30,168 nt of DNA, from positions 1 through 30,168 of IMG/VR virus record IMGVR_UViG_3300046467_000878; one strand, given 5' to 3'. The position numbers and the translations under genes are program-made. This document shows, piece after piece, positions 18,819 through 25,121 of the stretch. The notes beneath the pieces are model-generated. The model searched no databases. It saw only the letters and a program-made list of their open reading frames with translations, and was not told the origin of the DNA. The stretch's first letter is position 1. Each line of letters begins with the position of its first letter. This DNA comes from a virus.

Positions 18819-19304
18819 ATGGCACATTTTGCACAAGTGATAAACAATAAAGTAGTTAGAGTATTAAAAGCTGAACAAGAATTTGTAGATTCTTATGATG
18901 ATGGTATTAATGAGGGTGAGTGGATTCAGACTTCATATAATACGAAAGGTGGAAAACATTATTCTTCTGAAACTGGTTTAGAAGATGATAAACCACCTTT
19001 AAGAAAAAATTATGCTGGTATAGGTTTTACATATGATAGAGAAAATGATGCGTTCATTCCCCCGAAACCATATCCAAGTTTTGTATTGAATGAAACAACA
19101 TTTAGATATGAACCACCTATTTCATATCCTGAAGGAATGCCTGGTGGATTTCATAGATATATTTGGAATGAAGAATATTATCAAGCAGAGGGAAAGTGGG
19201 AAGATTTGTGGGAAACTGCAAAATCATATTTTAATCCGGAGTCAGTATATTATGATCCTCATGCTGAATGGATAAACCCTGATGAAACACCACAAGAGTG
19301 GTAA
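18819..19304 (+). CDS. Conserved phage protein of the MAHFAxV type, 161 aa
   Basis: This 161-aa protein is acidic and aromatic. The N-terminus MAHFAQVINNKVVRVLKAEQ, then GEWIQTSYNTKGGKHY, LRKNYAGIGFTYD and FIPPKPYPSFVLNE, form a pattern I recognise from many marine myo- and podophages, usually next to tail fibre genes and annotated as hypothetical. It is rich in Pro, Tyr and Trp with no membrane segment. The KNYAGIGFTYD and IPPKPYPSW/F motifs suggest a small compact beta domain. It is the last gene before an intergenic region with two late promoters. Its function is unknown; a fibre-associated or assembly role is inferred from its location. Confidence 0.78.
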   Translation: MAHFAQVINNKVVRVLKAEQEFVDSYDDGINEGEWIQTSYNTKGGKHYSSETGLEDDKPPLRKNYAGIGFTYDRENDAFIPPKPYPSFVLNETTFRYEPPISYPEGMPGGFHRYIWNEEYYQAEGKWEDLWETAKSYFNPESVYYDPHAEWINPDETPQEW

Positions 19305-19987: not shown

Positions 19988-19995
19988 TATAAATA
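19988..19995 (+). promoter_or_regulatory. T4-type late promoter upstream of the 115-aa structural gene
   Basis: A perfect TATAAATA lies in the 43-base gap after the 201-aa gene. The ATG at 20024 has an AAAAAGGAAT ribosome site in front, so a transcript starting shortly downstream of the element would have a leader of about 23 bases. Confidence 0.78.
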
Positions 19996-20023: not shown

Positions 20024-20371
20024 ATGGCTAATGAATTTACGAACGCAATAGCACAAAATGTAAATGCTGTCGCTGGAACTGGCACACTTCTTTATACTGC
20101 ACCTGCGGGTAAAACGTGTATTATGTTGGAATTGGATATTGCTAATACATCAAGTGCTGTAATTGAAGCTTCTGTTGAAATATTAGATAAAAGTGTTTCG
20201 ACATCAGCTTGGAGGTATCTAGTTAAAAATGCACCTGTTCCCGCCGGTGGTTCATTGATGGTAATTGCTGGACAGAAAATTGTACTGGCACCAGAAGATG
20301 CAATTAGAGTAACATCAAGTGCTGCAAGTGCTATGGATGTTGTTGCCGCAATCTTAGAGGATGTTAATTAA
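20024..20371 (+). CDS. Small virion beta protein, 115 aa (paralogue of 25490-25825)
   Basis: The 115-aa product looks like an all-beta sandwich: TGTLLYTAPAGKTCIMLELD, then NTSSAVIEASVEILD, PVPAGGSLMVIAGQKIVLA and EDAIRVTSSA. The same order of strands, with a (P/I)P(A/S)GGSL turn followed by AG(Q/K)K(I/V)VLE/A, occurs in the 111-aa protein at 25490, so the two are likely paralogues. Both precede a YIG-module fibre gene that begins at the last base of their stop codon. It is probably a small virion decoration or fibre cap; there is no direct evidence of function. Confidence 0.75.
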   Translation: MANEFTNAIAQNVNAVAGTGTLLYTAPAGKTCIMLELDIANTSSAVIEASVEILDKSVSTSAWRYLVKNAPVPAGGSLMVIAGQKIVLAPEDAIRVTSSAASAMDVVAAILEDVN

Positions 20372-20946
20372 TGGCATATATAGGCAAGTCACCTGCTGAA
20401 GCAGGACAAGTAACATCAGAAAAAGAAATTACTGCAACAGCAGGACAAGTTGCTTTTGTTCTTGATACAACAGTTAGTAGAGAAACTGATATTATTGTTT
20501 CTATCAATGGTGTTGTACAACCAGCATCTGCATATACTATAGGTGGATCATATAATAAGACACTTACAATGTCAGCTGGACTGACTCTTAATGATGTTCT
20601 TAGAGTTCATCATATAGGTTACCAACCATCATATTTTGGACTTCAACCAGGTTCTGTAGATTCATCACACCTGGCAGCTGGTTCTATAGATATAGCTCAT
20701 CTTAGTGCTACCGGTACTCCATCAGGAGATGTAGCATTGAAGGGTGATAATACTTGGGGTACAGCAGCTGCTCCTGAGATTTATGGATTTAGTGTTGATG
20801 CTAACGGGCATTTAATTGTTACGACAACTAATGAAGGTGCAGATAATATCACTAGTGCAACATATGCTACGTTCAAAGATGCTCTACTGTCTGTCTCTGG
20901 CTATACTTGGTCACTTGTAGGGACTCAACTAAGATGTACAATTTAA
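20371..20946 (+). CDS. YIG-module tail fibre protein, 191 aa
   Basis: The start codon overlaps the preceding stop by one base (TTAATGG). Residues 1-90 are the shared fibre module: MAYIGKSPAEAGQ, then AGQVAFVLDTTVSRETDIIV, SINGVVQPASAYTIGG and VLRVHHIGYQP. A linker with repeats (PGSVDSSHLAAGSIDIAHLS) connects to SGDVALKGDNTWGT and a short C-terminal domain (IYGFSVDANGHLIVTTTNEG) that resembles the tip domain of other phage fibres. Compared with its relatives it is short and lacks a collar or lectin domain. It probably forms a short fibre or a fibre base to which a partner attaches. Confidence 0.8.
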   Translation: MAYIGKSPAEAGQVTSEKEITATAGQVAFVLDTTVSRETDIIVSINGVVQPASAYTIGGSYNKTLTMSAGLTLNDVLRVHHIGYQPSYFGLQPGSVDSSHLAAGSIDIAHLSATGTPSGDVALKGDNTWGTAAAPEIYGFSVDANGHLIVTTTNEGADNITSATYATFKDALLSVSGYTWSLVGTQLRCTI

Positions 20947-20965
20947 CTTTTAAAGGAAACTAATC

Positions 20966-21838
20966 ATGGCAACTATAGACTTAGGAGCAATCAGATTTAA
21001 CTGGAGAGGAGCTTACGCGAATGGCACAGCCTATGTTGCAAATGATGTTGTGTCTTTTGGTGGTGCTTCTTACATAAATATTTTAGCATCAACAGGAATT
21101 GCGGTATCAACCGTAGCCAATTGGAGTGTGATGTCTTCTGCTGGTACAGATGGTACAGATGGAACAGATGTAGGTACAACTATTACTACTCAAGGCGATT
21201 TACTTTATAGAGATGGTAGTGGCCCTGCTCGATTAGCTAAAGGAACTGGTTTTCAAACTTTAAGAATGAATACCGGTGCTAATGCACCTGAATGGGTTAC
21301 TCCTGTAAGTCAATCAAGTATAGGTTTATCAACTATATGGGTTCCTGCAGTGGCAATGTATCCGACAAGTACTCTTGGATGTGAATCTGTAGCTCAAGTT
21401 GAAATTACTGCTCAAAGACCAGAATTAAAAACTTTAAATTTTAAAGTTGCGGCTGATTCGTATGCACAATTTGCAATAGCTTTTCCTAAATCTTGGGATA
21501 AGAGCTATCTTCAATATCGAACTTATTGGTCTGTTACTGGAACAGATGTAAATACAGTAGTTTTTACATTATCGGCATACGCAATCTCCAGTGATGATCC
21601 AATGAACCCAGCATTCCCCGCGGGAGTAGCTAATACTGCATTGGCTCATAGTGGAACAGCAAACGATTTAATGGTTAATGCTTTAAGTGGTAACGTAACA
21701 GTAGGTGGTACTCCAGCCGATGGAGATCAAGTTTTTTTCCAAGTTATGAGGGATGTTTCTGCTGGTACTCAACCAGCCGATGTAAGATTACTTGGTATTA
21801 AATTATTTTTCACAACTAATGCGGAGAATGATGCATAA
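20966..21838 (+). CDS. Fibre protein with CBM5/12-like N-terminus and collagen-like triplets
   Basis: An AAAGGAAAC ribosome site precedes the ATG. Residues 10-54 (NWRGAYANGTAYVANDVVSF, ASYI, then NWSVM) have the W-x(n)-Y-x-x-x-D-x-V pattern of the carbohydrate-binding module family 5/12, used by phage fibres to bind sugar polymers. Residues 60-68 are three Gly-Thr-Asp collagen-like triplets. A GDLLYRDGSGPARLAKG shaft repeat follows. The C-terminal 130-290 is a beta domain (SYAQFAIAFPKSWDKSYLQY, then YWSVTG, DQVFFQVMRDVSAGT) that ends in TTNAENDA, a recurring marine phage structural domain. It probably sits at a fibre tip and binds host surface glycans. Confidence 0.8.
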   Translation: MATIDLGAIRFNWRGAYANGTAYVANDVVSFGGASYINILASTGIAVSTVANWSVMSSAGTDGTDGTDVGTTITTQGDLLYRDGSGPARLAKGTGFQTLRMNTGANAPEWVTPVSQSSIGLSTIWVPAVAMYPTSTLGCESVAQVEITAQRPELKTLNFKVAADSYAQFAIAFPKSWDKSYLQYRTYWSVTGTDVNTVVFTLSAYAISSDDPMNPAFPAGVANTALAHSGTANDLMVNALSGNVTVGGTPADGDQVFFQVMRDVSAGTQPADVRLLGIKLFFTTNAENDA

Positions 21839-22821
21839 TGGCTAATTTTTATGGTTCGTACATAGGTTATGGCAGTGGAGGAGAAACTGCTGCATTAGCT
21901 GGTTGGTATGGCACTCGTGGTGTAATTATGGCTGGTTATTACCCAAATAGGGACACGATAGATTACATAACCATAGGCACTCCAAGTGCAACTGCTCTAG
22001 ATTTCGGTGACTGCATAACTGCTGTTAGAGGTGCTAATACTGGGGGTAATGGAATTGGTGGCAGAGGTTGTTGTGTTGGTGGATCAACCAATTCAGGGCA
22101 AGGAAATGGTGGAGCTTTATCAAGTCCAGGCCTACAGTATGTAACATTTAGTTCAACTGGTAATGCCATTTATTTCGGTGATTTACTTGTTGGAGCATAC
22201 GGCCCCACATCAGGAGGGAATGATGGGACGAGATTGCTGAAATATGGTGGTGAAGGAGGTAGTCCATATTATAACGAAAGTATCGATTATGCAACGGTGG
22301 CAACTACGATGAATGCTTTAGATTTCGGAGATATGTATGGGGGTGGTGCTTCAAATGGTTCTCATGTAAACGATGGCACAACTTCTCTACAATGTGGTTA
22401 TTATAGGGCTGCCCCAGCGGGAAAACAAGCGGAGATACAGGTTGTAACGACAATGACAACTGGAAATGCAACAGACTGGGGGCCAGTCTTCCCTGTTGCG
22501 TGGTCTGGTGGTTCTGGCACAAGTAGTGATTCTGGAAGGGGTGTGCTTCACGTTTCAGATACTGCTCCTGCTGGTTACAACAACACTATGGAGTATCTAA
22601 CGATCCAAACAGCAGCAGATGCTCTCGACTTTGGGGATCTGCTAGTTCAATACAACTCCACTATTGGTAAGCTATCTAACGGCACAAGAGGATGTATCGC
22701 TGGAGGATACCCTTCCTCTACAACTATCGATATGTTCAATTTCGCAAGTATTGGCAACAGCACTGATTTCGGCAACTTATCAGTTGGTAGAAGTATGTGC
22801 GATGGAATTTCAGGAACTTAA
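21838..22821 (+). CDS. Six-repeat propeller-like fibre protein (Kelch-like)
   Basis: This 327-aa protein has six repeats of about 50 residues. Each has a strand like IDYITIGTPSATALDFGDCI, found at about 41, 99, 149, 198, 251 and 297, with the DFGD signature replaced by YFGD in the second, DWGP in the fourth and DFGN in the sixth. Between them come N/G-rich turns and GTRG.I.GGY strands (24-35 and 282-291). Six similar units of this size suggest a six-bladed beta-propeller of the Kelch/galactose-oxidase type, common among adhesins. The base composition is visibly less AT-rich than neighbouring genes. The start overlaps the preceding stop by one base. It probably acts as a receptor-binding protein. 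Confidence 0.78.
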   Translation: MANFYGSYIGYGSGGETAALAGWYGTRGVIMAGYYPNRDTIDYITIGTPSATALDFGDCITAVRGANTGGNGIGGRGCCVGGSTNSGQGNGGALSSPGLQYVTFSSTGNAIYFGDLLVGAYGPTSGGNDGTRLLKYGGEGGSPYYNESIDYATVATTMNALDFGDMYGGGASNGSHVNDGTTSLQCGYYRAAPAGKQAEIQVVTTMTTGNATDWGPVFPVAWSGGSGTSSDSGRGVLHVSDTAPAGYNNTMEYLTIQTAADALDFGDLLVQYNSTIGKLSNGTRGCIAGGYPSSTTIDMFNFASIGNSTDFGNLSVGRSMCDGISGT

Positions 22822-22824
22822 ATT

Positions 22825-23652
22825 ATGAATGACATTACACAGACCAACGGACATGGACATGGTTTAGTATTATCAAAAAATGTTTTAGGGGATTTATTAG
22901 AAGGCAGTTCTATTTCTGATGAAGGATTGCAGAAAATATGTGATCGTTTGCCAGAGCTACATAGAGGAAAAAAAATATGCGGAAGAAGGAACAGCCAAAC
23001 GACTTCAACTTTGATGTCGATGACTATGATAGCCGATTCTCCGTATAGGCAGATGAAGCAATGTTTATCCCAAATAGATGCCAAGCGGAATGCATTGATT
23101 GAAGCTCATTTTAATATCAAAAAAGATGAGGTCAGGATAAAACGATATGAAGAAGGAGACGATGAATTAGATAAGGTTGAAGCAAAACACATAAGAGCAA
23201 CTATGTATGAGGTTAGAACTTCTGCTGAAAATGCAATGAAAGAAATAGGAATGTACCAAGACATCTATGAGCAGATTAGAAAATCCCACAACATTCCAGT
23301 TGATTGGGATGAAGAAGATTACGAAGCACAAGAAATACCTCACGCCATACGAATGGGATTTAGACAAGCCATACAAAATATAATGAGTAGCGGTAAAATT
23401 GCAATTTCTACCGTTGAATATTGGGAGCAGTTTGGGGTGCATCCATTGGTAGGTGAAAAACTAACAAGAGATTATTTAGAATCAGTTGCTATTGAGATTA
23501 AAGACAACAAACTACCGAGCGTTGTCAGTATGCACAAATTTTTAGACCATATGGTTGAAACCTTTAAAGATGAATACAGACATTCTTTAACAAGAATTGG
23601 AGTGGATGCAGTCGTTAATCATCAATATGCGTATAAGAAAAAAAAGCAGTAA
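22825..23652 (+). CDS. Uncharacterised coiled-coil protein, 275 aa, first of the oxygenase block
   Basis: The 275-aa product is charged and mostly helical. Residues about 70-160 have heptad-like spacing (PYRQMKQCLSQIDAKRNALI to NAMKEIGMYQDIYEQIRKS) and probably form a long coiled coil. They are followed by an acidic NIPVDWDEEDYEAQE linker and a helical C-terminus containing HAIRMGFRQAIQNIM and VEYWEQFGVHPL. I recall similar proteins near fibre genes in marine phages as hypothetical. The end has a KKKKQ tail and its stop touches the next ATG (TAAATG), so it is translationally coupled to the first oxygenase. It may be a scaffold, chaperone or virion protein; this is unresolved. Confidence 0.75.
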   Translation: MNDITQTNGHGHGLVLSKNVLGDLLEGSSISDEGLQKICDRLPELHRGKKICGRRNSQTTSTLMSMTMIADSPYRQMKQCLSQIDAKRNALIEAHFNIKKDEVRIKRYEEGDDELDKVEAKHIRATMYEVRTSAENAMKEIGMYQDIYEQIRKSHNIPVDWDEEDYEAQEIPHAIRMGFRQAIQNIMSSGKIAISTVEYWEQFGVHPLVGEKLTRDYLESVAIEIKDNKLPSVVSMHKFLDHMVETFKDEYRHSLTRIGVDAVVNHQYAYKKKKQ

Positions 23653-24222
23653 ATGTTTTATATGTTCCCAAGAATTGTTAAACCAGAAGTTTGCGACAAA
23701 ATCGTTAAGGATTTATTGAGTAATAATCTTGAACCAGCGATGGTAGGTTCTCATAAGAATGGTTTAAGAGATGAACCAGATATTAGACAGACTTCTGTTT
23801 CTTTTGTTCCATTTAATATTAAAAGTAAAGCAAATGATATCGCATGGTATTTCTTAAAACAGGCAAACGAAAAATTTTTTAATTACGATCTTACACTTTT
23901 TGAGAATATACAATTTGCCGAATATAAGAACGGAGGGTTCTATGATTGGCATCAAGATTCAAGAGAACCTGATGAGAAGAATAATGTTAGAAAATTGTCA
24001 TTAACTTTTGTATTGTCTGACCCTGATACCTTTGAAGGTGGTAAGTTAGAGTTTTGGAATGGTAATAGATCGATAGAAGAGTCAGAACAAACTAAAAACG
24101 ATATGAAAGCACAGGGTTCTCTAATAATCTTTGATAGTAGGGACTGGCATAGGGTAACACCAGTAACTAAGGGTGTTCGTCATTCGGTAGTTTGTTGGTC
24201 GCTTGGGCAATCATTTAAATAA
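23653..24222 (+). CDS. 2OG-Fe(II) oxygenase, prolyl-4-hydroxylase/PKHD-like
   Basis: This 189-aa protein has the complete iron and 2-oxoglutarate binding set: H100 and D102 in YDWHQDSR, H166 in RDWHRVTP, and R176 in KGVRHSVVCW. These belong to the double-stranded beta-helix dioxygenases that couple oxidation of 2-oxoglutarate to succinate and CO2 with hydroxylation of a substrate. The strands KLSLTFVLSD and GGKLEFW and the SLIIFDSRDWH strand fit PKHD/P4H members. The N-terminal MFPRIVKPEVCDKIVKD helix is typical for this group. The substrate is unknown. It lies within fibre genes, so a virion protein or host surface target is possible. It is coupled by TAAATG to genes on both sides. Confidence 0.88.
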   Translation: MFYMFPRIVKPEVCDKIVKDLLSNNLEPAMVGSHKNGLRDEPDIRQTSVSFVPFNIKSKANDIAWYFLKQANEKFFNYDLTLFENIQFAEYKNGGFYDWHQDSREPDEKNNVRKLSLTFVLSDPDTFEGGKLEFWNGNRSIEESEQTKNDMKAQGSLIIFDSRDWHRVTPVTKGVRHSVVCWSLGQSFK

Positions 24223-24801
24223 ATGGTTTTTATCGAAGATAAATGTTTGCTTGATGAAAAAGAAAAAGAATATATTGATGAATTAATTACTAATAATTGT
24301 TTCCCTTATTTTTATCAAAGTACTGCTGTCAATGATGACCATTATCCATTTTTATGTCATACATTAAAATTTGCAGATAAGGCTACACATCATTCATCAG
24401 AAACAGAAAAGTTTATTGGAATACTTGATAAGTTCTGTAAAAAACATGAGATTGATTATGATACAGTTTATAGAGTAGTTATTAATTTAACTTTTAATAA
24501 TGGCTATAAACAATCTGCTATTCATTGCGATCATAAGTTTGAGCATAAACAATTAATCATTTATTTAAATGAACCGAAAGATAAAAAAAGTCAAACTGTT
24601 ATTGTAGATAAGGATAAAGAGATAAAAGTAGTACCAGAAAAATATAAAGCAATTTGTTTTGGGAAAGAATCACATTATCATTACACACCAAGATTTGGAG
24701 AGAGAATTGTGGCAGTATTCACATTTGGGACAGAGCTATTGACGGTAAAAAAACCGAACAAGGAGAATAACTATGGCAGTAGTAGAATATACATTAGTTG
24801 A
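24223..24801 (+). CDS. Second 2OG-Fe(II) oxygenase-like protein
   Basis: This 192-aa protein is a divergent relative of the preceding dioxygenase type rather than a copy of it. H101 and D103 in the AIHCDHKFEHKQLIIYLN segment give the H-x-D pair, H151 or H153 in ESHYHYTPRFGERIV gives the distal histidine, and R161 is the likely 2-oxoglutarate ligand. The HKQLIIYLN strand and CFGKESHYHYTP are typical of oxygenases encoded by cyanophages and related marine phages. The substrate is unknown. The ATG directly follows the stop of the first oxygenase, and its 3' end overlaps the next gene by 29 bases. The two enzymes may act on related targets or in sequence. Confidence 0.8.
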   Translation: MVFIEDKCLLDEKEKEYIDELITNNCFPYFYQSTAVNDDHYPFLCHTLKFADKATHHSSETEKFIGILDKFCKKHEIDYDTVYRVVINLTFNNGYKQSAIHCDHKFEHKQLIIYLNEPKDKKSQTVIVDKDKEIKVVPEKYKAICFGKESHYHYTPRFGERIVAVFTFGTELLTVKKPNKENNYGSSRIYIS

Positions 24802-25060
24802 CGGAAGAACACCTGATTGGATAACTGATGGGGGTCATTGGGGAAATAACGATGCCAACATTAAACTGATTGGGACTGGAGCAGAAGGTAGCATACCAGA
24901 AGGTACTGTCACTTATACTTTAGCAGAACTACAAACAAGACAACTAGCTATTCACGCTAATGAGCCTCGGAAGAAACAACCTGTTCATACAGACTCTGTA
25001 ACTGTAACTGAGGATGAAGTAAACGCTGAAATTAAAGAGTGGTGGGATGCTAGAAACTGA
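24773..25060 (+). CDS. Small uncharacterised protein, 95 aa
   Basis: The ATG is preceded by a strong AAGGAG ribosome site at about 24760 even though the gene overlaps the end of the oxygenase by 29 bases in another frame; this argues that the start is real. The product begins VEYTLVDGRTPDWITDGGHW and has a Thr/Glu-rich middle. It ends in an acidic helix (TEDEVNAEIKEWWDARN). I recognise no domain; similar small proteins appear near fibre genes in cyanophages, but I cannot name one. It is the last gene of the oxygenase block, followed by tandem late promoters. Confidence 0.68.
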   Translation: MAVVEYTLVDGRTPDWITDGGHWGNNDANIKLIGTGAEGSIPEGTVTYTLAELQTRQLAIHANEPRKKQPVHTDSVTVTEDEVNAEIKEWWDARN

Positions 25061-25104: not shown

Positions 25105-25121
25105 TATAAATACTATAAATA
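25105..25121 (+). promoter_or_regulatory. Tandem T4-type late promoters before the second fibre set
   Basis: Two perfect TATAAATA elements (25105-25112 and 25114-25121) are separated by one base, the same 9-base arrangement as at 6114-6130. They lie in the 80-base gap after the 95-aa gene. The ATG at 25141 has an AAAAGGAAA ribosome site. Confidence 0.82.

Follow-up and report, generated by a model that had tools for sequence, protein, structure and literature searches.

Two predicted 2OG-type oxygenase genes within a kelch-fibre cassette of an uncultured, apparently T4-like marine phage

RESULTS

Gene organization of the fibre region

The window analysed here is the entire IMG/VR record IMGVR_UViG_3300046467_000878, 30,168 bases in length. 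Its named genes encode baseplate-wedge proteins (phrog_261, phrog_219, and phrog_438) followed by fibre and tail-collar proteins, which makes the window the baseplate–fibre portion of a marine T4-like myovirus genome. The window shares 36–46% identity with two baseplate-wedge genes of the pelagiphage HTVC008M. A DNA-level search of isolate phages with the region gave no match. Four consecutive genes, which we call A275, B, C, and D95 (Table 1), lie in this region with baseplate-wedge and fibre genes on either side. The original prediction, made from the sequence alone, described them as a tightly packed unit that contains two different oxygenases with HxD...H...R ligands and sits amid fibre rather than metabolism genes. 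The open reading frame coordinates, the TAAATG junctions at 23650 and 24220, and the 29-nt overlap between C and D95 are exactly as first described, the ligand residues are present in both B and C, and the named genes of the window include none recognised as metabolic.

Table 1. Features of the fibre region of the window
Feature	Position	Strand	Evidence and remarks
Late-promoter motif TATAAATA	19988..19995	+	36 nt 5' of gene 20024; the late unit ending with D95 probably starts here
g14 + g15	20024..20946	+	phrog_26609/1276, phrog_18673 tail fiber; g15 tail-fibre-like; start of the putative late unit
g16, tail-fibre gene, 290 aa	20966..21838	+	phrog_9851, phrog_5073 tail fiber
g17, kelch-like repeat fibre/adhesin, 327 aa	21838..22821	+	NALDFGDL-type repeats; directly 5' of A275
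A275, helical/coiled-coil fibre-linked protein, 275 aa	22825..23652	+	71-member alignment A6; AF2; phrog_1409
B, predicted 2OG-Fe(II) oxygenase, prolyl-4-hydroxylase/PKHD-like, 189 aa	23653..24222	+	PF13640, phrog_61, PDB relatives, alignment A4
C, predicted second 2OG-type oxygenase, recent insertion, 192 aa	24223..24801	+	phrog_274; H101, D103, H153, R161
3' insertion junction of C	24734..24756	+	L009/L010 homology ends at 24733; L011 homology restarts at 24757 (blastn)
D95, small conserved fibre-linked protein, 95 aa	24773..25060	+	58-member alignment A5; AF2
Two TATAAATA motifs (25105, 25114)	25105..25121	+	36 and 27 nt 5' of fibre gene 25141; a further late unit probably starts here

Exact copies of TATAAATA, which we take to be the T4 late-promoter core, occur ten times in the window (706–25121), all on the + strand, a modest excess over the 4.9 expected by chance on both strands that 5 of 100 shuffles reach. 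Eight of the ten lie 27–68 nt before gene starts, and the set is likely a late-promoter map of the region. As no exact copy was found between 19995 and 25105, the fibre genes at 20024–22821 and A275-B-C-D95 may form one late unit. At two loci that lack B (L017 and L018), A275 and D95 each have a motif of their own, 24–51 nt upstream.

Enzyme B resembles prolyl 4-hydroxylases and PKHD-type enzymes

B appears to be a member of the 2OG-Fe(II) oxygenase superfamily: it matches the Pfam family 2OG-FeII_Oxy_3 (PF13640) above the cut-off (6.9e-19) as well as phrog_61, and its ligands H100, D102, H166, and R176 do not vary across the aligned family. Compared with solved structures, the B profile matches PKHD-type hydroxylases best (8e-15 to 7e-13), with prolyl 4-hydroxylases at 1e-10 and weaker, and B is predicted to be a prolyl-4-hydroxylase/PKHD-like enzyme. 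A bacterial EF-Tu prolyl hydroxylase (PDB entries 4iw3/4j25) is also among its solved relatives (8e-7), and we know of no established protein substrate for the PiuC-type relatives of B.

B also matches the 'ferrochelatase' family phrog_3531 (9.7e-12). Genes with this label lie beside fibre-linked 2OG genes in other phages (L002:12215-12853, L004:14512-15625, L006:12439-13071, and L008:7453-8094); none of these four has a Pfam ferrochelatase match and one shows weak 2OG/PhyH matches. The label on these phage genes, and the ecological claims built on it, merit re-checking.

Enzyme C, a putative divergent oxygenase encoded by a recently inserted gene

C itself has no direct Pfam family match, its scores being below thresholds. 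Its HxD...H...R motif (H101-C-D103, H153, and R161) and the match of 4 of 10 aligned relatives to PF13640 nevertheless point to a 2OG oxygenase, and the best solved matches of the C-family profile are prolyl 4-hydroxylases (3e-4). Comparison of the C and B family profiles with hhalign was weak (probability 6.6%), suggesting that C is a divergent member of the 2OG oxygenases. C matches phrog_274, which is labelled 'DNA endonuclease V', at 4.7e-25. No Pfam match to an endonuclease V or pyrimidine-dimer endonuclease domain was found in C or its relatives, and this label looks wrong for what seems to be a 2OG oxygenase family. We also considered C as a T4 DenV pyrimidine-dimer endonuclease and rejected this assignment, as there was no DenV match and the relatives match 2OG Pfam families instead. 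One C relative matched Pfam Oxygenase-NA weakly (0.007).

Comparison by blastn showed that positions 24223–24733 of the window (511 nt) are 92–93% identical, ungapped, to two other loci (L009 and L010), where the C homologue lies between a phrog_7759-type gene and, by our own reading, the putative neck gene gp13. These homologues are located in other fibre clusters, with neither A275 nor D95 nearby. The flanks of C instead resemble a sister locus, L011 (94% identity over 24101–24222 and 85% over 24757–25054), in which C is absent and 11 nt separate B from D95. The GC content of C is 27.8%, compared with 36.6% for the window, and among the D95 loci a phrog_274-type gene occupies the slot between A275 and D95 in the window only. 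C is thus a recent guest, cleanly inserted between the stop codon of B and the ribosome-binding site of D95. C ends in residues that differ from those of its relatives and that extend into D95, which accounts for the 29-nt overlap; the overlap is real but a by-product of the insertion.

A275 and D95 are conserved fibre-linked families

The AF2 model of A275 is all-helical and coiled-coil (pLDDT 85.6), and that of D95 is a small strand-plus-two-helix protein (pLDDT 90.8). A275 and most of its relatives match phrog_1409, a family of unknown function, while D95 gave a single match per contig in 18 of 18 contigs scanned. Neither protein, nor its divergent relatives, had a tblastn match in isolate phages; neither had significant relatives by sequence among solved structures, and Foldseek of the two models returned nothing significant in the PDB. 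A fold search of BFVD with D95 found two uncultured-virus proteins only (E 0.004–0.006). With VIA-align, D95 reached a Z of at most 2.5, and A275 gave generic two-helix coiled-coil matches only (Z up to 9.0, residues 68–161), results that do not imply a new fold for either protein. Positions in D95 and A275 that track oxygenase presence were confined to lineage-confounded columns, none being clear once lineage was considered. A275 and D95, whose families are newly named here, are probably assembly or attachment factors of the kelch fibre g17.

The cassette recurs in uncultured phages with varied oxygenases

Searching fetched contigs with the window proteins (tblastn) revealed the same order in several uncultured phages, i.e. 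a kelch-type fibre, A275, often B, and D95, with A275 and D95 adjoining where B is absent. Repeat fibres akin to g17 lie directly 5' of A275-family genes at many loci, and one such fibre upstream of an A275-family gene carries an Mtd_N virion-attachment domain. Deeper scans yielded 47 D95 loci and 63 A275 loci, from gene calls that use ATG starts only and contigs that are mostly fragmentary. The D95 proteins formed 26 clusters at 80% identity, 18 of them with at least four upstream genes. A275 was found within five genes upstream of D95 in 17 of the 18 clusters with enough sequence; in the window it is three genes upstream. With 2OG classes assigned by iterated HMMs built in this analysis, 2OG genes lie within four genes upstream of D95 at 14 of 18 loci and within four genes downstream at 2 of 25, and their share of genes is 25–39% at each offset from −4 to −1 and almost nil elsewhere (26 loci). 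Whole-record PF13640 searches missed some B genes and were excluded from these counts. A 2OG gene lies no more than four genes away from 7 of 27 kelch fibres directly followed by A275, compared with 1 of 32 other kelch fibres. The conserved unit is a kelch-repeat fibre, an A275-family gene, and a D95-family gene, with B often between the last two.

The oxygenase content of this unit differs among loci. Besides the A-B-C-D order of the window, we found A-B-D (L011, L012, L023, and L047), A-(X+B fusion)-D (L048, L068, L071, and L073), X-B-O5-A-D (L051, L056, L061, L063, and L066), and kelch-A-kelch-B-D (L206), where X is a further 2OG-like domain by its HxD motif, with no Pfam match of its own, and O5 matches 2OG-FeII_Oxy_5. 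Because the X+B protein joins two 2OG-like domains, the presence of two distinct oxygenases in the A275–D95 slot appears to be a recurring theme, with partners differing each time. Fusions of this kind, 397–449 aa long where whole, are encoded in the cassette at L048:3044-4393, L068:6675-7988, L073:2529-3722, and L076:5766-7070. A275–D95 pairs with no nearby oxygenase also exist (L017–L019, L037, L044, L075, and the L082–L114 group), among them the near relatives L017, L018, and L044, so the fibre module can do without these enzymes, and B, present or absent among close cassettes, seems to be an accessory to it. The proposed reading of the four genes as one fixed system is consequently not supported: A275 and D95 do recur with fibres and B-type oxygenases, whereas C, a late arrival, and B are not an obligate pair.

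The fibre unit is duplicated at two loci (L012:6886-11520 and L206:1172-5090), where a pair of kelch fibres is interleaved with A275-family genes, or has one such gene in common, and a lone B and D95 follow. L206 was the only MAG contig in a D95 scan of the genome collection; it is a phage-like fragment whose Anaerolineales bin was excluded as host evidence.

Stable linkage of B to the cassette

In a tree of 112 B domains, the cassette-linked proteins fall into two groups: the window-type group, made up of L127 and seven cassette members, and a second group of 13 members, all cassette-linked. The cassette label changes 3 times on the tree compared with 18.8 by shuffling, a contrast inflated by near-copies, although the groups span large sequence distances. 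The distal H...R motif is kept in 20 of 20 cassette-linked B proteins. In the B-selected sample, another 2OG gene lies within three genes at 59 of 62 usable B loci, mostly with neither A275 nor D95, suggesting that marine phages more generally carry 2OG arrays next to genes of the fibre region, of which the A275–D95 cassette would be one stable version. In HTVC008M, four 2OG genes stand in a row beside neck genes.

These data bear on the strongest alternative to a role in the fibre, namely that the fibre cluster is a hot spot for mobile cargo in which recombination gathers 2OG genes that are functionally unrelated to their neighbours. The clean and recent insertion of C, its homologues in other fibre clusters, the varying presence of B among close cassettes, and the frequent arrays outside the cassette are as this explanation would have it. 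It is nonetheless unlikely, as the two cassette lineages of B keep near-constant linkage over large sequence distances and the cargo of the slot is mostly one enzyme class and not random genes.

DISCUSSION

A possible role in fibre hydroxylation

Our preferred explanation, with a probability of roughly 0.4, is that B, helped by C, hydroxylates a protein of the fibre cassette late in infection. According to this model, the kelch adhesin g17, A275, and D95 would be a conserved core at the end of a late tail-fibre transcription unit, and B, predicted to be P4H-like and encoded between A275 and D95, would be dedicated to the cassette. Aided by the newly acquired C, B may act at this late stage on a cassette protein (the adhesin, A275, or D95), and its hydroxylation could tune fibre folding, stability, or receptor binding, with a possible effect on host binding. 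In its favour are the single oxygenase slot, the varied 2OG types found there, the stable B lineages, the P4H relatives, the bracketing late motifs, the more frequent 2OG genes near kelch fibres directly followed by A275, and the presence of the closest relatives of C in a fibre cluster. Against it stand the A275–D95 pairs without oxygenase, the 2OG genes elsewhere in marine T4-like phages, the PiuC-type relatives with no established protein substrate to our knowledge, the D95 and A275 positions that fail to track oxygenase presence clearly, and the lack of a collagen-like or proline-rich substrate: no collagen-like repeats were found in the window proteins, and no strongly proline-rich substrate stretch in the fibre proteins of the putative late unit.

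Short proline-rich stretches in the window are confined to the 1826-aa gene and to 18819–19304. The latter encodes a fibre-cluster protein which, like its homologues (phrog_7759), has a proline-rich motif that recurs (PPKPYPSF is one example), and 43 of the 62 B-type oxygenases have a phrog_7759-type gene no more than three genes away. A protein of this type is a possible alternative hydroxylation substrate.

In the accessible parts of the published work, phage 2OG genes are read as metabolic, nitrogen-related, or DNA-repair genes, with no tested function given there (PMC4164917, PMC11561400, PMC9599517, and PMC9146016). Next in plausibility, and likewise improbable in our view, is that the oxygenases are auxiliary metabolic enzymes acting on host small molecules (2-oxoglutarate/nitrogen, sulfur, phosphorus, or iron-linked) and merely lie in a permissive late region. 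Three of these sources class phage 2OG-Fe(II) oxygenases so (PMC4164917, PMC11561400, and PMC9599517), and seasonal marine phage groups show an enrichment of phrog_61. Such a role fits poorly with the precise, repeated placement of the genes beside A275 and D95 or in the slot between them, where the B lineages stay, with the protein hydroxylases among the closest solved homologues of B, and with named window genes that include no recognised metabolic gene.

Modification of a host protein late in infection (EF-Tu, a ribosomal, or a surface protein) is suggested by the 4iw3/4j25 enzyme among the relatives of B, but this match is weaker than that of the PKHD group and host targets leave the linkage to the fibre cassette unexplained, which makes it quite improbable. 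Action on DNA or nucleotides (repair or base modification) is very improbable: the 'DNA endonuclease V' label of phrog_274, a DNA-repair role proposed in PMC9146016, and the Oxygenase-NA match point that way, but the HxD...H...R motif and the Pfam matches seen among C and its relatives are those of 2OG enzymes and none is to a pyrimidine-dimer endonuclease, B is P4H/PKHD-like, and the genes apparently share a late unit with fibres.

The literature searched contained no account of phage enzymes hydroxylating fibres; the Phold paper describes phage 2OG proteins that are structurally similar to the human prolyl hydroxylase EGLN3. As 2OG oxygenases are common 'auxiliary metabolic genes' in ocean-virus counts, their link to a specific fibre cassette cautions against a default host-metabolism reading and offers a concrete, testable hypothesis of virion fibre hydroxylation. 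More broadly, and somewhat doubtfully, a modular adhesin cassette of kelch fibre, A275, and D95 with dedicated hydroxylases might be a virion-fibre modification system in many uncultured phages, varied by oxygenase swaps, and a share of the marine '2OG', 'ferrochelatase', and 'endonuclease V' auxiliary metabolic genes might then be fibre-modifying enzymes.

Comparison with known systems

B shares the catalytic-region match and the ligand pattern with PiuC/Sbal_3634 (PKHD) and with prolyl 4-hydroxylases (PDB 9ghl, 3dkq, 5c5t, and 2jig), but differs from them in its phage context, with no collagen-like substrate in the window. C belongs with the phrog_274 'DNA endonuclease V' proteins, a family that looks 2OG-like, unlike T4 DenV. 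The pelagiphage 2OG/ferrochelatase gene clusters (PMC9599517) resemble the window in having several non-orthologous 2OG genes in one region; in the accessible part of that paper they are read as metabolic partner genes and no tie to an A275–D95 fibre cassette appears.

The phrog_61 oxygenases of marine T4-like phages (T4-GC 412; HTVC008M, S-SM1, and P-SSM7) are similar to B over nearly its full length (31–36% identity), with intact catalytic residues, and in S-SM1, P-SSM7, and S-RSM4 the relative lies near tail-fibre genes, followed by 'DNA endonuclease (V)' genes. Unlike these isolate genes, B sits in the A275–D95 cassette, which was not found in isolate phages by tblastn, and the cassette B proteins appear to form two lineages of their own.
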